The translations under genes were made by a program, and so were the position numbers. From positions 1 through 34,418 of the forward strand of contig NZ_JAHKRL010000317.1 in NCBI RefSeq assembly GCF_019396405.1: a stretch of DNA of 34,418 nucleotides. The letters are read 5' to 3'. The DNA comes from Nonomuraea rhizosphaerae (GTDB lineage: Bacteria > Actinomycetota > Actinomycetes > Streptosporangiales > Streptosporangiaceae). Every line of letters starts with the position of its first letter. Position 1 is the stretch's first letter. Of the stretch, positions 4,604 through 30,365 are shown piece after piece. Under the pieces are notes generated by a model, which saw only the letters and a list, made by a program, of their open reading frames with translations, searched no databases and was not told the origin of the DNA.

Positions 4604-5011
4604 TCACGAGCTGGCTCCCTGCCGGTAGGTCTTGAAGCTGGTTGGGTCGATCAGCCACGCGCGGGCGTGGAGTCGTTGGGCGCGGATGCGGCCAGCGGCG
4701 GCCAGGCGGCGAAGCTGACGCGGCGAGTAGCCGGTCTGCTCTGCTACCTGGCCGACGGTGACCATCACCCGTTCCACCGTGGCAGGGGCGTGCTCGGGAG
4801 GGCCGACGTCGGCCACCGGGGCGGGCTGGTCGGCGGCCTGGAGGGCGCGGAGGAACTCCGTCATGCCGGGCCGGGGGGTGCCGCCGTTCTCGCGCATCTC
4901 GCGGTTGAGGCCGCGCAGGAGGGTGACGAGCACGTCGCGTTCAAGGCCGGCGGGTACGGTGACGCCCCCTGGCTCCGAAGGGGACGGAGAGCGGGCGTCA
5001 GCGCTGCCCAT
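4604..5011 (-). CDS. Excisionase-type helix-turn-helix DNA-binding protein
   Basis: This protein has about 135 residues from the ATG at 5011. The C-terminal 55 residues form a MerR/excisionase-like winged helix: V-T-V-G-Q-V-A-E-Q-T-G-Y-S-P-R-Q-L-R-R-L-A-A-A-G-type recognition sequence followed by a wing ending W-L-I-D-P-T-S-F. The N-terminal half is Pro/Gly-rich with a short helical segment (D-V-L-V-T-L-L-R-G-L-N). Such proteins act as recombination directionality factors or as regulators. A recombination directionality factor would suit the serine integrase of this element, but a regulator is equally possible. The frame is open to 5074. No start has a convincing ribosome binding site, so 5011 is a best guess. 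Confidence 0.65.
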   Translation of the reverse strand: MGSADARSPSPSEPGGVTVPAGLERDVLVTLLRGLNREMRENGGTPRPGMTEFLRALQAADQPAPVADVGPPEHAPATVERVMVTVGQVAEQTGYSPRQLRRLAAAGRIRAQRLHARAWLIDPTSFKTYRQGASS

Positions 5012-5197
5012 GATCGACCACGATGACGGACCGTGTCTGCATGACCGAGTGAATGGCCCTGCATGACCGGACAAAAGCGGACGAATATCGGGGCGTCGGC
5101 CATCCCATAAGGTCGGCGCACGTCAGCGCGTCGTCAGACCGTACAGAATCGAGATTCTGTCTGGTATAGCGTCCAGCGTCGTCACAGATCGTCATGG
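5012..5197 (-). promoter_or_regulatory. Regulatory spacer with direct repeat and palindrome
   Basis: The 186 bp between the XRE gene and the HTH gene hold an 11-bp direct repeat, CTGCATGACCG, at 5037-5047 and 5059-5069 (22 bp apart, two helical turns). They also hold an 18-bp perfect palindrome at 5143-5160 (ACAGAATC-GA-GATTCTGT). This is the only long gap between minus-strand genes in the element, so it probably carries the promoter of the downstream gene set and operators for one of the element's regulators. I could not identify a convincing -35/-10 pair. Confidence 0.5.
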
Positions 5198-5803
5198 CTA
5201 CATCCCAGCCCTGATGACGTGACCGCCGACCTTGAGCGTGAACGGCGGCCCGGCCTCACGACGAGCAGCGGCAGCGATGCCCATCAGCTCCCGAGCGCGC
5301 GTGAGCGCCGTCACGTCGTCGAGCGCGCCCGGTCGGACCAGCAGCGCTTCCGCCTCGCCCTGCGCTGCGTTGGCGCGCGCATGCAGCGCCAACGCACGGG
5401 CGATCCGTGAGGGCATGGGAACGCGCCCGGCGAGGATCCCGGCCTCCATGGCGCGACGCCGACAACGGCGTGAGCCGTTGGTCTCCGGACGCAGCGACGG
5501 CCCGGCCGCGGCCACCAGCACCTCCAGCAGCTCCAGATGCGCATCAGGGTCGAGGGCGAGCGCCAGCGACGACAGCATGGAACGGCGCGGCCGGCGCTCC
5601 CCGCGCTCCAACCTCGTGATGGTGCTGCGTGACGTGGCCGCACGGAGAGCGAGCCGCCGAGTGCTCAATCCGTAGCGGGCACGCAGGGCGCGCAGGGTCG
5701 CGCCGAGCGTGGCCACAAGGCGGTCGCGTTCGGCATCCCCCGGTAGGTGGTCGCCTAACACGCGCACGCGAGACCCGTCCGCCTCCCCGCCCGGCGCTGT
5801 CAT
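5198..5803 (-). CDS. XRE-family transcriptional regulator
   Basis: This is a 201-residue protein starting at ATG 5803, which overlaps the stop of the zinc ribbon gene by four bases (ATGA). Residues about 30-90 form a classic XRE helix-turn-helix: L-R-A-L-R-A-R-Y-G-L-S-T-R-R-L-A-L-R-A followed by S-R-S-T-I-T-R-L-E-R-G-E-R-R-P. The rest is helical, Ala/Arg-rich and unassigned. It lies at the downstream end of the early gene cluster, just before the regulatory spacer at 5012-5197. It therefore may control the switch from early to structural genes; that role is inferred from position. Confidence 0.75.
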   Translation of the reverse strand: MTAPGGEADGSRVRVLGDHLPGDAERDRLVATLGATLRALRARYGLSTRRLALRAATSRSTITRLERGERRPRRSMLSSLALALDPDAHLELLEVLVAAAGPSLRPETNGSRRCRRRAMEAGILAGRVPMPSRIARALALHARANAAQGEAEALLVRPGALDDVTALTRARELMGIAAAARREAGPPFTLKVGGHVIRAGM

Positions 5804-5967
5804 CGGCGGGCCTGGATCCGAATCCAGGTGGGGCAGTCGTCGTCGTGGTGGAGCGACAGGTGGGCGACGCCGTTCTTGATCGCGATGTCGGTTTCGGAGT
5901 CGCAGTCGGGGCAGCCGCCGGGGATGGTCGCACCGTCGAGGCGGGCGAAAAGCTCCGTGACGTTCAT
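5800..5967 (-). CDS. Small zinc-ribbon-like protein
   Basis: This protein has 55 residues from the ATG at 5967, which begins two bases after the primase stop codon. It contains C-P-D-C near residue 20 and a second cluster H-L-S-L-H-H-D-D-D-C-P, so Cys and His residues could bind zinc. Small proteins of this kind with a C-x-x-C and a later H/C group are common in actinophage early operons, usually without known function. An in-frame ATG at 5988 would add seven residues and overlap the primase end. Confidence 0.6.
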   Translation of the reverse strand: MNVTELFARLDGATIPGGCPDCDSETDIAIKNGVAHLSLHHDDDCPTWIRIQARR

Positions 5968-5969
5968 GC

Positions 5970-7805
5970 TTATTCGTCCGTTTCGCAAAGGGGGTGTCGC
6001 GTCTGGCCGGGTTCGACGATGGTCATGGGCTCGCGGCAGGCTTCGCAGCGGCCGTTTTGGCTGGTGGGAGGGGAAGTTGCAGACCTTGCAGACCCTTCCG
6101 GAACTTTCTGATGTCCCACGTGGGAAGCGGAAAGTTCTGAAGAGGTCTGCAAGGTCTGCAACTTGGGGTCTTCTCCCTGGTCAAGGTCGGTCTCCGACTC
6201 CTCCGGGATCGGGTCATCCTCGGTCCGGAATCGGACACCGACATAGACCACCGGTTGCTTGGGGAGCGGGTCCGGTACGGAGAGCGGCGAGGTGTAGTCC
6301 CGGTACCTCACGAGGCCGTCGAGGCGCTTCGTGCGGCGCTCGGCGACCCCGTGCCGGGCGGTCTCCGTGTGAGTCTTGAAGCGGGGGTGGAACAGCTCCT
6401 TGGACCACATCTTGTGGCCGTTGCCGACGAGCCAGGTGTTGAACGCTTCGAGCATGTCGGTGGTAAGCACGAGCGCGGCCCGGTCGGCGACGAGCTGCTC
6501 GTCCCAGAAGCCGAGCACCCGATCGGCTTCGGCGCGCCACGCTCGGGTGTCGGCGGCGACCGTCTTCGTGACGGACATCGAGGTGTCGGGGTCGGCGTAC
6601 CAGCGCATCGCGCCCTCGACCACCCACGTCACGATGGCGTCCTGCTGGCCGCTCCTGTTGGCCTTGATGCGCGCCTTGAGGCCGGGGTCGCCCTGGCGTT
6701 CGTCGGGGCGCCGGCACTCCTCACCGGGCTTGCGGAAGGTGTAGGGGAAGCGCAGCAGGGCGAGCCGCCGCCACGTGCCGTGATCTGTTTCGTTGACGAC
6801 CGGAAGATAGTTCGTGGTGGCGAACAGGGAGTGGGTGGCCGGGAAGGTCATGTTGGACTTGTAGACGTGCCGGGCTCGAATGACTCCGACGTCCATGATG
6901 CGCTTGATCGCGGTGACGTTGAGGGCGCGGCCCTCGGTCATCTCCTCCGACACGAGGAAGCGCTGCCCGCGTAGGCTCGCCATCTCTTCGGAGTGCTCGT
7001 TGCCAGGGGAGAGCAGCTTGTGACTGGCGACGTCGGCGTAGTCGCCGAGCGCTGCGACGAGGCTGTCTGTGGTGATGAGCGTCTTGCCGTTTTCACCGCC
7101 GCCCTGCATGACGACGAGGATGCCGTCGGGGTTCGCGTGGCCGGTGACGGCCTGGCCGATGCGGACCTGGAACCATTCGCACTCGGCGCAAGGGAGCGCG
7201 TCGAGGGCCTTCATCCAGTCGGGGTGCCTGTAGCCGGGCCGGTAGGAGCCGCGCGTCATCTTGGTCATGAGCAGCGCCGGGTCATGGGCGCCGAGCTGGC
7301 CGGTGCGCAGGTTGACGACGCCGGCCGGGGTGTTGAGCAGGTCGGGGTCGGCGTCGAGGTCGGCCGGGTCGACGTGGATGCCCTCGACGCCGCGGGCGAG
7401 CGTGGTCACGTTGCGCACCTTGGCCGCCGAGAGCATGCCGAGCAGCTCCTTCAGGCGGCCCTGGTTGAGGCGCGGCCCGGCGGCGGCGGTCCTCTGGCCG
7501 AACTGTGCGGCCAGGTGGAGCCGTACGACCTCGTGCACGAGGGATTCGTCCACGGCGGCCCACCGCTTACCGTCCCAGCGCAGCCAGCCCAGGCCGGGGC
7601 ACCACCGGAACTTGCCGACCAGGACGGCGTCGGCCACCTGGTCGACGAGCACGGAGTCGGACACGTCGCCATGGCCTGCCGCGTCCTTCACATCATCGTC
7701 GGGGCTGTCAGCGGGGGGAGCGTCAGGCCAGGACGGGTCATCGCGCGTCAGGGAGTCCACGTACGCCTGAAGGGCGTCGGGGTCGGAGAAGTCGGGGTCG
7801 TTCAC
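5970..7805 (-). CDS. P4-family primase / SF3 helicase
   Basis: This 611-residue replication protein resembles phage/plasmid primases of the P4 family. A helicase of superfamily 3 unwinds the origin and the N-terminal region is linked to priming. Walker A is G-G-G-E-N-G-K-T at 235-242. Walker B is near 274-283 (R-F-L-V-S-E-E), and sensor motif C is near 323-332 (L-F-A-T-T-N-Y-L-P-V). The C-terminal tail has a C-x-x-C...H-x-L-C group that may bind zinc. The GTG start at 7805 overlaps the preceding stop by four bases. Codons near residues 545-575 coincide with a 91-bp nested palindrome, a candidate origin. The element therefore probably replicates autonomously after excision. Confidence 0.88.
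   Translation of the reverse strand: MNDPDFSDPDALQAYVDSLTRDDPSWPDAPPADSPDDDVKDAAGHGDVSDSVLVDQVADAVLVGKFRWCPGLGWLRWDGKRWAAVDESLVHEVVRLHLAAQFGQRTAAAGPRLNQGRLKELLGMLSAAKVRNVTTLARGVEGIHVDPADLDADPDLLNTPAGVVNLRTGQLGAHDPALLMTKMTRGSYRPGYRHPDWMKALDALPCAECEWFQVRIGQAVTGHANPDGILVVMQGGGENGKTLITTDSLVAALGDYADVASHKLLSPGNEHSEEMASLRGQRFLVSEEMTEGRALNVTAIKRIMDVGVIRARHVYKSNMTFPATHSLFATTNYLPVVNETDHGTWRRLALLRFPYTFRKPGEECRRPDERQGDPGLKARIKANRSGQQDAIVTWVVEGAMRWYADPDTSMSVTKTVAADTRAWRAEADRVLGFWDEQLVADRAALVLTTDMLEAFNTWLVGNGHKMWSKELFHPRFKTHTETARHGVAERRTKRLDGLVRYRDYTSPLSVPDPLPKQPVVYVGVRFRTEDDPIPEESETDLDQGEDPKLQTLQTSSELSASHVGHQKVPEGSARSATSPPTSQNGRCEACREPMTIVEPGQTRHPLCETDE
6074..6164. repeat. Nested palindrome inside the primase gene, candidate replication origin
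   Basis: The outer arms are perfect 21-bp inverted repeats at 6074-6094 and 6144-6164. Inside them GAACTTTC at 6101-6108 pairs with GAAAGTTC at 6130-6137. The centre is the perfect palindrome TCCCACGTGGGA at 6114-6125. Each outer arm also contains a short direct repeat, GGTCTGCAA twice in the right arm, as iterons would. The element lies in the 3' part of the primase/helicase coding sequence, so both strands read similar peptides. An origin recognised by the encoded protein is the simplest reading. A strong mRNA structure is the alternative. Confidence 0.8.
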
Positions 7806-8882: not shown

Positions 8883-9512
8883 GTGGCAACAGACGAAGAT
8901 CAGAAGGTCCCGACGGTCGGTCAGGTTGTCGGCCGGAACCTTGCTCGCCTACGCCAGCAGTGGGGGCAAACCCAGCAGGAGGCCGCGACTGTTCTGCGCG
9001 CGGACGGGCTGGCCTGGACGGCGGCGAACGTCGCCTCGATAGAGAGTGGCCGGCGGGAAACGATCGACTTCGGCGCGCTGGTTCTTCTTGCAGGCTCCTA
9101 CGAGACGCCCTTGTCCGGCCTGTTCCTCGGGGAGGGCGACATGCGGCTGAGCGCTGACGTCACGGTCGAGCTGGTCGACCTCAGGCGATGGCTTGACCAG
9201 GAAGCGCGCCTGACCATCACCCTGTCGTCGGGCCCGGCTGTGCAGCGCTGGCTCGACTCGATACCGGCCGAAAGGGTGTCGTTCCAGGCTGACGCAGAGC
9301 TGGCCGCACGGCTGGGACTGCGGCCCGAGGACGTCTATCGCGCAGCCGAGAAGCTATGGGGCGGACGGAACCTGCATCAAGAGCGCGACCGGCGTTTGGC
9401 CGAGTATGGCGACCTGACGCCGGCGCAGAAGCGTACGAGGCGAGGGCACATCACTCGCCAGCTCGCTAAAGAGCTGGAGCCTCACCTGCCGAAGCCTTCT
9501 TCTCAAGCCTGA
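8883..9512 (+). CDS. Lysogeny-type repressor with XRE domain
   Basis: This protein has about 209 residues from GTG 8883; an in-frame GTG at 8865 is possible. The N-terminal 75 residues contain a helix-turn-helix with an unusual insertion: R-N-L-A-R-L-R-Q-Q-W-G-Q-T-Q-Q-E-A-A-T-V-L, then A-W-T-A-A-N-V-A-S-I-E-S-G-R-R. The C-terminal part is helical and charged, without a LexA-like Ser/Lys protease dyad that I can see. It is the only plus-strand gene in the element and diverges from the Cro-like gene, which fits a maintenance repressor. Its 3' end overlaps the integrase 3' end by 47 bp on the opposite strand. The integrase is therefore antisense to repressor transcription. Confidence 0.72.
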   Translation: MATDEDQKVPTVGQVVGRNLARLRQQWGQTQQEAATVLRADGLAWTAANVASIESGRRETIDFGALVLLAGSYETPLSGLFLGEGDMRLSADVTVELVDLRRWLDQEARLTITLSSGPAVQRWLDSIPAERVSFQADAELAARLGLRPEDVYRAAEKLWGGRNLHQERDRRLAEYGDLTPAQKRTRRGHITRQLAKELEPHLPKPSSQA

Positions 9513-10971
9513 TCGCGTCCGGGTCGAAGTAGCCCCACTCCTTGCCGTACTCCGGCGTCCACCCGCGCGGGCGCCCCTTCCCGGCGGGCAGGACGATCAC
9601 GCGCATGATCTCCCTCAGGACAGTGCGCTTCCGGTCGAGGTCGAGCCCATCCCACACCGCTTGCGCTGACTCACCCTGCCGGAAGGGCCCCAGGGCGGTC
9701 ACGCGCGCCGCCGCAGTGTCGGCCTGGTCCAGCTCGGCCCGGCGTTGGGCGGTCTTCTGGTTGGCCTTGATGAGCTGCGCCTTGGTCATCAGTCCTTCGG
9801 CGAACATCTCGGCCGCTTCCTCGTCGCGGACGCGGAGCGCCTCACGCTCCAGTACGCGGGCGCGCGCCGCGCCGTCGTCGCTCCTGCCCTCGAACGCTGC
9901 GACGGCGCCGGGCTGGGACAGCCACTCGACGGCCACGGCCTCCACGTACTTGTCCAGGTGGACGGCGTACCGTGCCACGTGCTTGCGTCCGTCGGCGCAC
10001 CGGTAGGCGGGGACCGTGCTCCGTACGCCGCCCATGCTCATGCCTGCCGTGGCGCAGACCATGAAGGCGTCATCTCGGCCGTCGTCCACGCACACGCCGC
10101 ACTCGTACAACCCCGACCCCAGCCAGCGGCGGCCCGGCCCAGGGGAGGTTCGGCGCTCGGGGTCGTTCAGGAGCGCGACCACGCCCCGCCAGGTCTCTTC
10201 CGGCACGATGGCCGGCCATTCGGCCTTCCCGACGATCTCGCCGCGGTGCTCCATCAGGCCGGCGTTGCGCGGTCGGCGAAGCATCGCGGCCACGGACACC
10301 GCCAGCCACTTCCCGCCGGTCGATGTGGGGATGGCGCGGGCGTTCAGGTCACGCATGATCGCGTGGAGGCTTGCCCCGGACAGGAGCGCCTCGGAGGCCC
10401 GCACCACCTCTGCGGCCTCGGCCGGACGCACGGTGACGCCGTCCGCCTCGTACCCGAACGGGCGACGGCCGCCGAGCCAGCGGCCTTCCTGGGCAGATTC
10501 CACTTTCGCCGCCTCGATTCGTTCGATCATGTGGTCTACCTCGTATTGGGCGTCAACGATGTCGTTGCGGAACCGCTTGCGGCCGGTTGGCGTCGACAGG
10601 TCGTAGGAGCCGGACCGGGCCGTCTCGACGGGGTGTTTGCCCTGCGCGCACACGGAGAGCAGCGCTTCGCCGGAGCCGATGTCGCGGTCGAGCCGGTCGG
10701 CGTGCCATGCCAGGACGCCGAGGGGCTGTGCGCGGCGGTCGCTGCGCAGCTCGTCGAGCATGGCCGTGAAGCGGTCGCGGCGTGCCGGGCCGGCGCCCAC
10801 CTTGACGAAGGCGGTCCGGTCGGCGTCGACGAACTCGGCGACGATCCGGCCGCCGATCCTGGCCGCGTGGGTGGTGCAGTCGCGCCTCTGGCGGGCGATG
10901 CCCGCGCGGCCCTTGGACCTGCGCAGGTACAGCACGTAGTCGCGTTCGCCGTGGGGGGTGGAGGTCGCCAT
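9466..10971 (-). CDS. int: Large serine integrase
   Basis: This 501-residue large serine recombinase would integrate the element between attP and attB. The N-terminal resolvase fold begins Y-V-L-Y-L-R-R-S-K with the nucleophile Ser at position 19, and the arginine-rich R-Q-R-R-D-C follows. The D-R-L-D-R-D segment lies near 92-97. The recombinase domain (about 165-270) has G-R-W-L-G-G-R-R-P-F-G-Y, and a zinc ribbon starts at Y-E-C-G-V-C near 290. A coiled-coil motif follows, roughly 360-430. The length is normal for the family. ATG 10971 is about 20 bases from the yifB junction. No Shine-Dalgarno is visible; a CATACT element seven bases upstream could give a leaderless transcript. The integrase matches the finding that yifB is split. 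Confidence 0.93.
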   Translation of the reverse strand: MATSTPHGERDYVLYLRRSKGRAGIARQRRDCTTHAARIGGRIVAEFVDADRTAFVKVGAGPARRDRFTAMLDELRSDRRAQPLGVLAWHADRLDRDIGSGEALLSVCAQGKHPVETARSGSYDLSTPTGRKRFRNDIVDAQYEVDHMIERIEAAKVESAQEGRWLGGRRPFGYEADGVTVRPAEAAEVVRASEALLSGASLHAIMRDLNARAIPTSTGGKWLAVSVAAMLRRPRNAGLMEHRGEIVGKAEWPAIVPEETWRGVVALLNDPERRTSPGPGRRWLGSGLYECGVCVDDGRDDAFMVCATAGMSMGGVRSTVPAYRCADGRKHVARYAVHLDKYVEAVAVEWLSQPGAVAAFEGRSDDGAARARVLEREALRVRDEEAAEMFAEGLMTKAQLIKANQKTAQRRAELDQADTAAARVTALGPFRQGESAQAVWDGLDLDRKRTVLREIMRVIVLPAGKGRPRGWTPEYGKEWGYFDPDAIRLEKKASAGEAPAL

Positions 10972-10995
10972 AAATCTAAGTATGCCACAACTTGA
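10972..10995. other. Attachment junction (attL or attR) inside yifB
   Basis: Plus-strand yifB coding similarity begins at T-F-D-L-A-I-A-V (from about 10995). Directly upstream, the same frame runs into a stop at 10977-10979 and then into the integrase gene. In intact YifB proteins this point lies about 90-100 residues from the N-terminus, at P-K-x-G-S-x-F-D-L-A-I-A. The crossover site is therefore within about 20 bp here. The other junction and the 5' part of yifB must lie left of the window. The exact core dinucleotide cannot be read from one junction. Confidence 0.75.
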
Positions 10996-12293
10996 CTTTC
11001 GATCTCGCCATCGCGGTGGCGATCCTGGGCGCCGCCGGAGTGGTCCCCGCCGACCGCGTCGCCGAGCCGTTCTTCCTGGGCGAGCTCGGCCTGGACGGCC
11101 GTCTGAGACCCGTACGAGGCGTCCTGCCGTCCGTGCTCGGCGCCGCCGAACACGGAGACGTCACGGTAGTCGTCCCGGCCGCCAACTGCGCCGAGGCTGC
11201 GCTGGTGCCCGACGTCAAGGTGGTCCCGTTCGCCGACCTGCGCCAGTTGGTGGAGTGGCTACGCAGGGGAGAAGACCCGCCCGAGCCGTACATCGAGGAA
11301 ATCCAGGAGCCCCCGCCGCCCACCATTCAACCGGCAGTCGACCTGTCCGACGTGGTCGGCCAGCCGGTGGCGCGCCGAGCGCTGGAGATCTGCGCCGCGG
11401 GTGGCCACAACCTCTGGATGGTCGGCCCGCCCGGCACAGGAAAGACCTTGCTGGCCGAACGCCTTCCCACGCTCCTGCCCGACCTGGAGATCGACCACGC
11501 GCTGGAGGTAACGGCCATCCACTCGGTCGCCGGCATCCTGCCGCCCAACAGCCCGATGCTGAGCAGACCCCCGTTCGTGAACCCCCACCACACCGCCACC
11601 GCGGCCGCCATCATCGGCGGCGGCAGTACGGTCGTACGCCCCGGTGCCGTCTCGCTCGCCCATCGTGGGGTCCTGTTCATGGACGAAGCGCCTGAATTCC
11701 CGCGCAACATCCTCGACTGCCTGCGCCAGCCCCTGGAAGCCGGCCGCGTGACGGTTTCCAGGTCCGCCGGCTCCGTCACGTTCCCGGCCCGCTTCATGCT
11801 CGTACTCGCCGCCAACCCCTGCCCCTGCGCCCAGCCCCAGGACCAGGGGGAGAGCTGCCAGTGCTCACCCACGACAAGACGCCGCTACCTGGGCAGACTG
11901 TCCGGCCCCCTTCTCGATCGCATCGACATGAAGGTCACGGTCGCCCGTACGTCGAGACGCGAGCTCATGGCCGACCGCCAGTTCGTCGAGCCGAGCAAGA
12001 TCGTGGCCGAACGCGTCCTCGCCGCCCGGGAGCGAGCCGCCAAACGTCTGGACGGCACACCCTGGCGTACGAACGCCGAAATCCCCTCGACCTCTCTCCA
12101 CGCCGACTATCGCCCCTCGAACGCCGCCATGAAGTGCATGACCCACGCCCTCGACTCCGGCACCCTCAGCGCCCGCGGCCTCGACCGCGTCCTACGAGTC
12201 GCCTGGACCCTCGCCGACCTCGCAGGCAAACCCGCACCCGAACACGCGGAAACCTCAACCGCCCTCGCCCTGTGGCTGGGCGTGAACACATGA
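10992..12293 (+). CDS. yifB: YifB/ComM AAA+ ATPase, 3' fragment split by the integrated element
   Basis: The 433 residues from TTG 10992 match the C-terminal four fifths of YifB (ComM, Mg-chelatase-like AAA+ ATPase). ComM is a helicase that helps branch migration during natural transformation; its role in actinobacteria is not settled. Walker A is G-P-P-G-T-G-K-T near 143-150, and Walker B is L-F-M-D-E-A-P-E-F near 223. The Mg-chelatase C-terminal domain ends at G-V-N-T. The N-terminal Lon-like domain is cut off at F-D-L-A-I-A by insertion of the element. No ribosome binding site precedes the TTG, so the fragment is probably inactive unless the element excises. dprA follows after 237 bp, the usual order. 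Confidence 0.9.
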   Translation: MTFDLAIAVAILGAAGVVPADRVAEPFFLGELGLDGRLRPVRGVLPSVLGAAEHGDVTVVVPAANCAEAALVPDVKVVPFADLRQLVEWLRRGEDPPEPYIEEIQEPPPPTIQPAVDLSDVVGQPVARRALEICAAGGHNLWMVGPPGTGKTLLAERLPTLLPDLEIDHALEVTAIHSVAGILPPNSPMLSRPPFVNPHHTATAAAIIGGGSTVVRPGAVSLAHRGVLFMDEAPEFPRNILDCLRQPLEAGRVTVSRSAGSVTFPARFMLVLAANPCPCAQPQDQGESCQCSPTTRRRYLGRLSGPLLDRIDMKVTVARTSRRELMADRQFVEPSKIVAERVLAARERAAKRLDGTPWRTNAEIPSTSLHADYRPSNAAMKCMTHALDSGTLSARGLDRVLRVAWTLADLAGKPAPEHAETSTALALWLGVNT

Positions 12294-12530
12294 ACGGCCC
12301 AAGCCGCACACACCTCGACATGCTCCCAAAGCCACCGCAACCAGACATACGCCAACCTCGCCGTCGAGCACCTCACGCCCGCAGCCCATCAAGAATCCCC
12401 TAACCCCACACACCAGAGAACCGCCCCCCGCTGCCCAAACCCCCGCAATCCTCCCCACTCCGACGAGATCCGCTCTCACCTCCGAGACGCTCCCGTCACC
12501 CCCTCCCACCCCCACCTTCTAGGAGCGCCG

Positions 12531-14303
12531 ATGACAAGCACCGAACTGGAGGCCCGGGCCGCCCTCATGCGCGCCGCCGACGCTGGAGACGCCACAATGG
12601 GCCGCCTCGTAGCGTTCTGCGGCGCCGAGGCAGCCGTCGAAGCCATATGTACGCAGACCCTTCCCCCCGAATTCATCACCCAGGAGGTCCAAGCCGAGGG
12701 CACTCCCGACCACCCCTCTCCGGAGCACGTCCGACACACCACAGGCCGACAACACGGGTCCCGCACTCCCACCGGACACCTCCTGCCTGAAGCAGGCACC
12801 CAACCCATCCCGTACGACGCAGGAAGCGCATCACTCGAACCGCCGCCCACACCCTCCAACAACCAGCCCCCTCTGCCTCCACCCCTGGGCACGCGCCACC
12901 CCACGAACCCCGACCACCCACACGGCACAAACAACTCCCTCCACCAACCAAGCGCGCACCTCACTTGGGGGCAGGGCGCCGACACCACTCGGGAGCCCGG
13001 TGCAAAGACCGACCGGCCGTACAGCACAGCAACCAACGCTCAGAACCCGAGCTCAGAGATCATCACGCAGGACCTCGTCCCCTTCGCCCCGCGAGACATC
13101 GCCGCCCTCATCTCACATGACACCCCCGCCCTCACCCGGCAGCGCATCTCCGCCCTCACCCGTCGGCGAGTAACGCACCTCACCCAGCGACTGCAAACGT
13201 GGCACGCCCGCCTGGCCGCCTCCAACCCCACCGCCGACCTGATCGAAGGCGAGCGAAGCGGCGCCAGACTGATCATCCCCGGCACCCCGGAATGGCCCAC
13301 CCAACTGGACCAACTCGGCCCCGCCCGCCCCCTCGGCCTGTGGCTCCACGGCTCGGCCGACCTACGTTTCTCCTGCCTGCGATCGGTCGCCATCGTGGGG
13401 GCCCGTGCCGCGACCCCGTACGGTGTGCATGTCGCGGCCGAGTTCGCCGTGGGTCTCAGCGACTCAGGCTGGACGGTGGTCTCAGGTGGCGCTTTCGGCA
13501 TCGACGGCGCGGCACATCGCGGAGCCCTGGCGGCGGACTCACCCACAGTCGTCGTACTGGCCTGCGGCGTTGACATCAGCTACCCGGCCGGCCACCACGA
13601 ACTGTTCGCCGCGGCCCGCGACCAAGGCGTGGTGGTGAGCGAATGCCCTCCCGGCGTCCACCCCACCCGAGCCCGCTTCCTCATCCGGAACCGCCTCATA
13701 GCCGCCCTGTCCCGCGGCACCGTCGTAGTGGAGGCCGCACTCCGCAGCGGCGCACTCAACACCGCCGGCCACGCCTTGTCCCTCCAACGCCACCTGGCCG
13801 CCGTCCCCGGCCCCATCACCTCCGCCACCTCGGCCGGCTGCCACCGCCTGCTCCGCGAACGCAAGGCCGTCTGTGTCACCTCACCCGACGAAATGATCGA
13901 ACTCGTCGGCGTGATAGGCGACGACCTGGCTCCGCAGACGCGCGGCCCAGCCGTCCCCCGAGACGCACTCAACGAGACCACCAGAAGCGTCCTGGACGCC
14001 GTCCCCAGCCGCGGCGGCGCAGGCCCGGCATCGATCGCGGTAACGGCAGGAGTCTCTCTGGACGCCGCCCTGAGCGCCCTGGGCGGCCTGGCCGCCGCTG
14101 GTTATGTCGAACGAGTGGAGAAGGGCTGGCGAACCCGCAGAACCGCCCCAACCGCGTACCAGAAGGCCCACGACACAGCCCCATCTCGCCCCTCCCCATC
14201 GGATGCGACCGACCCCGACGACCTCCCACCCCCCTTCGACGACTCCGCCCACTTCACGGACATCCCGCCTCCCTGCCCCGACGAGTCCTCCCAGGCCATG
14301 TAA
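12531..14303 (+). CDS. dprA: DNA-processing protein DprA with long low-complexity insert
   Basis: DprA binds single-stranded DNA and loads RecA during transformation. The Rossmann-fold core spans about 255-450: S-V-A-I-V-G-A-R at 285, S-G-G-A-F-G-I-D at 318-325, then G-V-D-x-x-Y-P and R-F-L-I-R-N-R-L-I-A-A-L-S. A winged helix lies near 480-540. At 590 residues it is about 200 longer than usual. The excess is a Pro/Thr/His-rich stretch at about 50-180 that splits the N-terminal helical region, plus a Pro/Asp-rich tail. The ATG at 12531 follows AGGAGCG at a good distance. Its neighbour yifB is broken by the element, so any competence-type function of the pair is compromised on one side only. 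Confidence 0.9.
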   Translation: MTSTELEARAALMRAADAGDATMGRLVAFCGAEAAVEAICTQTLPPEFITQEVQAEGTPDHPSPEHVRHTTGRQHGSRTPTGHLLPEAGTQPIPYDAGSASLEPPPTPSNNQPPLPPPLGTRHPTNPDHPHGTNNSLHQPSAHLTWGQGADTTREPGAKTDRPYSTATNAQNPSSEIITQDLVPFAPRDIAALISHDTPALTRQRISALTRRRVTHLTQRLQTWHARLAASNPTADLIEGERSGARLIIPGTPEWPTQLDQLGPARPLGLWLHGSADLRFSCLRSVAIVGARAATPYGVHVAAEFAVGLSDSGWTVVSGGAFGIDGAAHRGALAADSPTVVVLACGVDISYPAGHHELFAAARDQGVVVSECPPGVHPTRARFLIRNRLIAALSRGTVVVEAALRSGALNTAGHALSLQRHLAAVPGPITSATSAGCHRLLRERKAVCVTSPDEMIELVGVIGDDLAPQTRGPAVPRDALNETTRSVLDAVPSRGGAGPASIAVTAGVSLDAALSALGGLAAAGYVERVEKGWRTRRTAPTAYQKAHDTAPSRPSPSDATDPDDLPPPFDDSAHFTDIPPPCPDESSQAM

Positions 14304-29342: not shown

Positions 29343-30365
29343 TCAACTGCCCCGTTCGTCCATGGCTTCGATGGTGACGGGCTGGAGCCAGAGCCAGCGG
29401 ACGGTTTCGCCGCCGAAGGTGAAGCCGGATAAGTCCGGCATGGCTGGTGGGTCCGCCAGCATCACGACGCCCGAGTACTGGGGGCCGAGCGGAAACGTGG
29501 ACGGCTCGTGGTACCACTTGGCCGTGTGGCCGTGGCCGAGCCAGGTGACCGAGTGCCAGGGGTACTGGGACAGCCAGACCAGCAGCAACGCCGCCTCACG
29601 CGGGTCGTCCCGGGTGGCCACGGCCAGCTCGATGCGGGCGTACGCGCCCGGACGGTCGATCCACTGCTCGACCGTCGGCATGCGCTGGCAGCTCATGCCG
29701 ACCGTGGACAACACTGTGAACCCACGTCGCTGGTGCGGCGGCCGTTCCGTGATGCCGACGGTGGGCAGGCGCTCGCCGCTGACGTCCCAGTAACGGCCGG
29801 CGGGGCCGAGTGATCGTTCCAGGTGACCCATGACGAACTGCTGGAACGACGCCCACGACCCTTCGCCGTGACGCCACCGCCAGTACGACTTGGCGTTGGC
29901 GATGCGGGGGCGCAGCCCGTCGAGCGCCTCGGACAGCGCCCAGGCGAACGGGGTCTCGCCCACGGCGTCACGGGCGTAACCGGGCATGCCTCTGCTCATG
30001 TCCGCCCAGCCGGGGATGACCGCCAGCAGGTCCGCGTCCTCGTACAACGCCACCCCGTCCCCCTCCTCGAACCACAGCGCGGTGAGCTGCCCGAGCGCCC
30101 TGCGTCCGGCGGGGTGAGTGGTGTTGGGCCTGGGCATGAGCGGGGGGAGGCCGGAGTTCAGCCTGGCCAGGTCGACGACCTCGGGGGCGGCGCGGTGGTT
30201 GGCCAGCCAGACGGCGCCGTGGACCTCGCCGTCGGGTGAGCACAGGTAAGCCACCGAGGCGTCCTCGTCCCGCTCGACCACGAGCGTTCGGCTGCCGTAC
30301 GGGTTACCGGCGGTGAGGACGACCTCGGTCTGCCCCTCGCCAGAAGCCGACCGAAAAATCGCCAT
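29343..30365 (-). CDS. SUFU-domain protein
   Basis: This is a 340-residue cytoplasmic protein. The C-terminal part (about 175-335) looks like the bacterial Suppressor-of-fused (SUFU) domain: a V-L-S-T-V-G-M-S strand, I-E-L-A-V-A-T-R, W-L-S-Q-Y-P-W-H-S-V-T-W-L-G-H-G-H-T, then Y-S-G-V-V-M-L and W-L-W-L-Q-P-V-T. Bacterial SUFU proteins are often immunity proteins in polymorphic toxin systems, but no toxin gene is adjacent. The N-terminal 170 residues are a separate soluble region with V-Y-L-type strands and many Asp/Glu; I do not recognise it. ATG 30365 has only a weak ribosome binding site. The gene is inserted against the direction of the conserved cdsA-rlmN block. Confidence 0.78.
   Translation of the reverse strand: MAIFRSASGEGQTEVVLTAGNPYGSRTLVVERDEDASVAYLCSPDGEVHGAVWLANHRAAPEVVDLARLNSGLPPLMPRPNTTHPAGRRALGQLTALWFEEGDGVALYEDADLLAVIPGWADMSRGMPGYARDAVGETPFAWALSEALDGLRPRIANAKSYWRWRHGEGSWASFQQFVMGHLERSLGPAGRYWDVSGERLPTVGITERPPHQRRGFTVLSTVGMSCQRMPTVEQWIDRPGAYARIELAVATRDDPREAALLLVWLSQYPWHSVTWLGHGHTAKWYHEPSTFPLGPQYSGVVMLADPPAMPDLSGFTFGGETVRWLWLQPVTIEAMDERGS

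Follow-up and report, generated by a model that had tools for sequence, protein, structure and literature searches.

The DNA analysed here (the window) is a stretch of 34,418 nucleotides from Nonomuraea rhizosphaerae (contig NZ_JAHKRL010000317.1, forward strand). Positions 5970..7805 of its reverse strand encode a D5/SF3 helicase of 611 amino acid residues, the presumed initiator. The protein showed Pfam matches to D5_N, DUF5906 and Pox_D5 (the last at residues 426-493) and scored above the cutoff of the NCBIfam model TIGR01613 (primase_Cterm), the helicase part of the "P4 family primase"; the PHROG primase families were matched in their C-terminal parts only. Neither Pfam nor PHROGs nor NCBIfam revealed a catalytic primase domain in the ORF. 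The gene had been designated a P4-type primase/SF3 helicase in the original prediction, and of this designation the helicase half is borne out by TIGR01613 and D5_N, the primase half being left without a recognised catalytic domain. An AlphaFold model of the protein (mean pLDDT 74.8) was aligned by structure with ASFV PrimPol (Z 28.6) and with the SaPI5 primase-helicase (Z 25.4, 389 aligned residues), and also with poxvirus D5/E5; E1, AAV Rep and SV40 T antigen followed lower down.

The 3′ end of the gene (5970..6056, reverse strand) encodes a CxxC...HxxC tail, a candidate zinc ribbon by its motif and not by a database match; a similar tail is present in the helicase of locus L155. A gene for an HTH protein (5198-5803) lies 270 bp past the element described below, and a serine recombinase gene lies 3.3 kb from it. 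The latter (9466-10971) stands beside dprA (12531-14303), the two spanning 9466-14303, and is followed by an integrase-family gene, rpsB and tsf. One edge of the prophage seems to lie near dprA, and the opposite edge is beyond the contig. On the chromosomal side, positions 29343-30365 encode a SUFU-domain protein.

A palindromic element of 91 bp (6074-6164) is located inside the helicase ORF, on the 5′ side of the tail codons in the sense of that gene. Its outer arms of 21 bp are perfectly complementary: arm 1 (AAGTTGCAGACCTTGCAGACC, 6074..6094, forward strand) has its exact reverse complement in arm 2 (6144..6164, reverse strand). The iteron TTGCAGACC occurs twice in each arm, 9 bp apart, at 6077..6085 and 6086..6094 on the forward strand and at 6144..6152 and 6153..6161 on the reverse strand. 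The window holds four exact copies of TTGCAGACC, all within the 91 bp; two stand in tandem in each arm, and the two tandem pairs are inverted relative to each other. The perfect arms are separated by a spacer of 49 bp (6095..6143), the presumed melting region, which contains an inner pair of 8-bp arms (GAACTTTC at 6101..6108, forward, and its partner GAAAGTTC at 6130..6137, reverse) and, at 6114..6125, the strandless 12-bp central palindrome TCCCACGTGGGA. The original prediction had described the same coordinates, perfect arms, inner pair and centre, together with iteron-type direct repeats in the arms and a location within coding sequence, and all of this was confirmed in the sequence. As single-stranded DNA, the segment 6060-6180 (121 bases) had a folding energy of −42.3 kcal/mol, as compared with a mean of −16.8 for shuffled sequences (z −9.0), and none of 200 shuffles folded equally well. 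A single copy of the element was found in the source genome, whose assembly is 64% complete.

The codons of the palindrome correspond to residues 548-577 of the helicase and fall within a stretch (residues 535-583) with pLDDT below 50, that is, of predicted disorder. Judged from this model, the element seems to be accommodated in the protein as a linker ahead of the small cysteine-containing tail.

It had been suggested that homologous genes be aligned to see whether the palindrome is kept while the arm sequence drifts, and this comparison gave the expected picture: both close relatives retain the element. In L003, a viral contig with 67% identity, it stands directly after the helicase stop codon and carries in both arms the iterons TGCCAGACC/TGACAGACC, whose letters differ from those of the window. 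Between the window and L003, 20 arm pairs were unchanged, and in four a change on one side was matched on the other so that pairing was kept; four were broken by a change on one side and one by changes on both, and two were unaligned. In Microtetraspora glauca (L162/L163, 71% identity) the element is in frame, with the arms conserved and the centre degraded; the central palindrome (6114..6125), degraded in L163, keeps 11 of its 12 letters in L003. Arm codon identity between the window and L163 (11/12) is little above the gene-wide value (279/396), and synonymous-codon conservation was dropped as evidence, the signal being too weak. An ORF at 4328-5242 of L003, presumably transposase-like by its sequence, ends directly ahead of the helicase ORF.

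For a wider survey, helicase loci were collected from IMG/VR, from genomes and from named records, leaving out copies of the window itself and loci found by pattern only. The loci surveyed were the window, L003-L009, L131-L154, L158, L159, L163 and L168-L360 without L172. From 227 loci with a helicase match, exclusion of near-duplicates (those with over 70% of 6-mers in common) and of matches shorter than 700 bp left 179, and removal of four with less than 390 bp downstream left 175. Inverted repeats were scored with a home-made measure, not a published tool (match +1, mismatch −1.5, gap of at most 140). A strong inverted repeat (score of at least 17) was found at the helicase 3′ end in 89 of the 175 non-redundant relatives. 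At a laxer threshold (at least 14) the number rose to 102 of 175 loci, with 0.3 expected from dinucleotide shuffles, and control windows gave 0/174 in mid-gene and 7/170 at +800..+1200. The midpoint of the strong repeat lay 0 to +250 bp from the end of the helicase match in 87 of the 89 cases (0.50 per locus); any other 250-bp bin held at most 0.041 strong inverted repeats per locus. By source, the 89 comprised 74 of 121 loci from IMG/VR, 12 of 49 from genomes, 2 of 4 named records and the window itself. Grouped by best-matching query, which is not a tree, the repeat was present in 7/9 loci of the window's group and in 42/62, 14/23, 20/38, 3/7, 1/1, 2/27, 0/7 and 0/1 of the others.

Homologues without the palindrome had been named in advance as a ground for rejecting a function, and in part they exist: the strong inverted repeat is absent at the helicase 3′ end in 86 of the 175 relatives, of which 84 fall outside the window's group. 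Nine of these 86 have arrays of direct repeats but no strong inverted repeat. In 12 loci outside the 89 a period-9 inverted repeat was found elsewhere, and eight of these loci have it 1.9-2.5 kb ahead of the helicase match end, so that the element may move. In L243, L245, L247, L251, L254, L270 and L281 the period-9 inverted repeats, several of them of the AGACGGGTTAGACAGCTA type, precede the match end by about 2.3-2.5 kb. In L142, L145 and L158, which belong to one group, inverted iterons of the GCGACTGAAGCGACC type stand either 2.1-2.7 kb ahead of the match end or 0.7-0.9 kb past it.

Among named phages and plasmids, OscarSo and LuckyBarnes (within the 175) have no strong inverted repeat, OscarSo showing a 16-bp hairpin with a 10-nt loop and without tandem repeats, and none was found in TM4, Vash or a Thermaerobacter plasmid, three records that are not among the 175. 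In Mycobacterium phage Milly, also outside the 175, the element stands 228 bp after the stop codon, and in plasmids of S. anulatus and Streptomyces sp. SM17 it stands 42 and 57 bp after it. The element follows the helicase in small plasmids (14-29 kb) and in phage contigs alike; the constant feature is its placement relative to the helicase domain.

A tandem run within the arm was detected in 87 of the 89 elements (12.7 expected from shuffled arm letters), and its period was 9 in 67 of them (2.0 expected) and 7 to 12 in the remainder. Total length was 84-92 bp in 38/89 and 81-105 bp in 55/89, within a range of 40-224. The centre has a GC fraction of 0.51 as compared with 0.65 in the flanks, and it was lower in the centre in 87 of 88 elements. 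T-rich or GTTAA-type (GTTAAC-like) motifs were present in 62 of 178 inner half-sites as against 13 of 178 outer ones, according to a motif list compiled post hoc, after looking at the elements. The iteron letters vary by group (GTACCGCCT, GTTACGCCA, TGTCACCTA, GGTGAGGGTT and others). An arm similarity of at least 14 was reached by 23% of the pairs with more than 70% protein identity, by 1% at 60-70% and by a fraction of 0.00 below that; on these sequence comparisons the iterons change rapidly. Iteron similarity was correlated with protein similarity (Spearman 0.21 for the N-terminal part and 0.19 for the C-terminal part; 0/500 permutations as high) in 85 of the 89 elements, short proteins having been dropped. 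No co-variation of the iterons specific to the C-terminal part of the helicase was found among these 85, and since the correlation is weak and no better for that part, it does not pin down the binding domain.

In 42 nearest-neighbour pairs of loci, 527 arm pairs were unchanged, and 83 of the 183 changed ones still paired, the other 100 having broken; 473 of 1183 were unaligned. The number of 83 compensated pairs is inflated, because both members had been chosen for having an inverted repeat. When close neighbours were taken irrespective of such choice, in a comparison that took in 171 of the 175 loci, 52 of 68 had an inverted repeat, as compared with 85 of 171 overall. Over these comparisons the arm letters drift and symmetry is largely retained.

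The palindrome is read through by the helicase frame in 33 of the 89 elements; 55 are located at or after the stop codon, mostly within 60 bp, and for one the stop is not known. Arm starts occupy all three codon phases among the in-frame elements, which says little because arm ends vary. Near-identical iterons are, however, read in two different frames, as GGT TAC (GYASY in L210, GYSGY in L275) and as GTT ACG (VTPVT in L211 and L240). In 28 of the 33 in-frame cases the element lies far from the stop, the ORF running about 600-680 residues further, and a DNA polymerase of family A was identified by Pfam in the continuing ORF of all 11 that were examined (10 loci and L169). One of the 28 helicase ORFs continuing through the palindrome is that of L169 (4016-6034). 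From these readings the element is likely to act as DNA, the reading frame not being what is conserved.

The closest published counterpart is found in plasmid pRN1 of Sulfolobus islandicus. According to the report on this plasmid, a stem-loop and the replication operon are necessary and sufficient for replication, and the stem-loop is still functional when moved; a separate putative terminator, unlike the stem-loop, is dispensable (PMC4234260). Several stem or loop mutations were harmless, and one alteration of the stem needed the restoration of perfect symmetry to be tolerated. The authors suggest the stem-loop as the origin, stating that direct evidence is absent, describe the origin as having no iteron structure, mention that rolling-circle replication was proposed by another group, and extend their idea to phages such as BIP-1 (PMC4234260). 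In Bordetella phage BIP-1, no more than a weak inverted repeat (score 10.5) was found, and it had no tandem run. The pRN1 stem-loop has perfect arms of 21 bp and a loop of 58 nt, 100 bp in total, and lies 54 bp after the orf904 stop, which compares well with the 21-bp arms, 49-bp spacer and 91 bp of the window element; in both cases the inverted repeat is found at the 3′ end of a homologous SF3 gene. The homology of ORF904, an SF3 helicase with a C-terminal winged helix, and the window helicase was detected over the helicase by hhalign (97.8%, E 1e-12), and both proteins are above the TIGR01613 cutoff. The pRN1 arm contains TGTCCA twice, 9 bp apart, and 0.9% of shuffled arms match this at any period; the pRN2 arm contains GGAC twice at the same distance, a repeat shorter than the run length used for the 89. 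Between pRN1 and pRN2, as in the relatives of the window, the structure is kept and the letters drift. Two differences stand against these likenesses: the pRN1 stem-loop lies outside the gene, whereas the window element lies inside the ORF, and ORF904 has a primase domain (PMC4234260), whereas none was recognised in the window ORF. Since geometry and helicase agree, and primase domain and position differ, the element was classed as a variant of the pRN1-type origin.

Other systems point in the same direction. In the Streptomyces plasmid pWTY27 the minimal replicon consists of repA, repB and a 300-bp non-coding stretch adjoining repA, the RepA footprint covers an iteron inverted repeat of about 105 bp, and a 149-bp piece with the footprint failed to restore replication, which the 300-bp piece did restore (PMC3583192). 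The order HTH - primase/polymerase - RepA - iteron inverted repeat resembles that in the window, and the inverted repeat has the plan of the window element with more repeat copies; RepA itself belongs to another helicase family (no Pfam match; PHROG 19930) and is at best a very remote relative. In phage P4, ori and crr are separate sites, and the primase domain is a different one. The P4 alpha protein is an SF3 helicase whose winged helix binds the origin repeats, as summarised in the report on pRN1 (PMC4234260). For the SaPI Rep and SCCmec Cch2 helicases, the iterons that they bind adjoin the downstream end of the helicase gene itself; loading as two hexamers is proposed, and Cch2 binding needs the direct repeats, the inverted ones being dispensable (PMC7581432). 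The likeness to the window lies in several short repeats beside the initiator gene and in Cch2 being of the Primase_Cterm/D5_N type; the Cch2 sites differ in being short direct repeats in intergenic DNA. The premise of the original prediction, that SF3 helicases bind origins close to their own genes, is in line with pRN1, pWTY27 and SaPI/SCCmec.

The 91-bp element is very probably the replication origin of the prophage (estimated probability about 0.85), because the same design stands beside such helicases in dozens of phages and plasmids, including pRN1. The candidate origin first proposed from this DNA thus gains support from the 89 of 175 relatives with a like-placed repeat and from the agreement of three published systems. 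We infer that the SF3 helicase from the surrounding gene would recognise the iterons on both sides and would assemble as hexamers, probably two, head-to-head; the relatively GC-poor centre would then melt, and bidirectional replication would start at the element.

An origin recognised as a cruciform or hairpin, whose arms need complementarity only, is the view favoured by the authors of the pRN1 work (PMC4234260). The symmetry largely kept during letter drift speaks for it, as does the pRN1 stem change tolerated only after symmetry had been restored (PMC4234260). A hairpin, however, needs no tandem repeats, which 87 of the 89 arms possess, 67 of them with a period of 9 bp (2.0 expected), and which the pRN1 stem itself carries (TGTCCA twice, 9 bp apart). 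Moreover, a separation of about 50 bp between the arms is unfavourable to cruciform formation. In SCCmec, direct and not inverted repeats were required for Cch2 binding (PMC7581432). On balance, recognition as a hairpin appears unlikely, though of all the alternatives it survives best.

An operator serving the helicase, or the HTH protein encoded next to it (5198-5803), in transcriptional control is considerably less probable. The HTH gene is near, 270 bp past the element, and iteron origins can double as operators; a sigma-70-type scan of 5150-6400 nevertheless gave no promoter-like site, and three plasmid records have the HTH gene at the opposite end of the operon, with the element still at the helicase 3′ end. 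Still less credence is given to a recombination, packaging or partition site, or to a palindrome symmetrised by mutation alone. A serine recombinase is encoded 3.3 kb away, and template switching can perfect quasi-palindromes, but the element follows the helicase in 14-29 kb plasmids as well as in phage contigs, and neither the bias to a single position nor the 9-bp period looks mutational. A terminator or mRNA hairpin, acting at the RNA level, would suit the strong predicted fold and the 55 of 89 elements at or after the stop, mostly within 60 bp of it, and is nonetheless the least probable reading of all, since a T/A tract at the outer ends was seen in only 7/89, no terminator was called in the window region, which lacks the combination of a short-loop GC stem and a T tract, 33 elements stand within ORFs (28 far ahead of the stop), the tandem repeats are left unexplained, and in pRN1 the putative terminator was dispensable and the stem-loop required (PMC4234260).

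For the element as an iteron origin, an origin of this kind is already known; its position within a gene and the reading of the stem as iterons are new as far as the openly licensed literature was searched. The chances are about even that D5-type SF3 helicases, in replicons ranging from archaeal plasmids to actinobacterial phages, share one origin design that is indifferent to translation. An equally balanced judgement applies to its form, which would be two inverted pairs of iterons of about 9 bp, spanning about 85-100 bp, straight after the DNA-binding end of the helicase. Under such a design the quick turnover of the letters would let them set replicon identity, and with the element in the linker of a larger ORF one gene would be helicase, origin and, there, polymerase; the pRN1 "stem-loop" would be an unrecognised iteron origin. 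Origins in phages, prophages and plasmids that encode a D5-type helicase could then be proposed by a simple rule, and the question of hairpin or iterons in pRN1-type origins would have a testable answer. Likely origins are also seen here to sit in translated sequence, and fast-changing iterons beside better conserved helicases would offer a system for studying how cross-talk between replicons is avoided.

Searches by letters were less informative. When the element was used as a BLASTN query against phages and plasmids, the three records obtained (E 3-4) included no relative. The pattern TTGCAGACNTTGCAGAC was found in at least 120 stretches of IMG/VR, and among those listed only L088 had a tblastn match to the window helicase; many of the matches look like unrelated coding repeats, so that the letters of the iteron by themselves offer no guidance. 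Among 15 such stretches viewed closely, L117 and L062 showed inverted iteron pairs, the repeats of L043 adjoin an ORF of 878 residues, six were coding minisatellites and six others showed nothing clear. The minisatellites (L016, L024, L060, L102, L109 and L119) are in-frame 9-bp repeats within ORFs, with closely similar units (TTGCAGACT/C) read as LQS or LQG, and the ORFs presumably encode D12-class DNA adenine methylases; the loci were picked by the search pattern, and no enrichment is claimed. A pattern with a wider gap gave seven stretches: L062, L117 and L161 and, with CAGAC-type palindromes, L164-L167. The ORF of L167 is not related to pWTY27 RepA. The ORF of L117 is related to it, and the L117 palindrome uses the iteron of the window. 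In L161, a contig of 5.6 kb, the palindrome at 4819-4912 carries three TACCAGACC-type iterons per arm.
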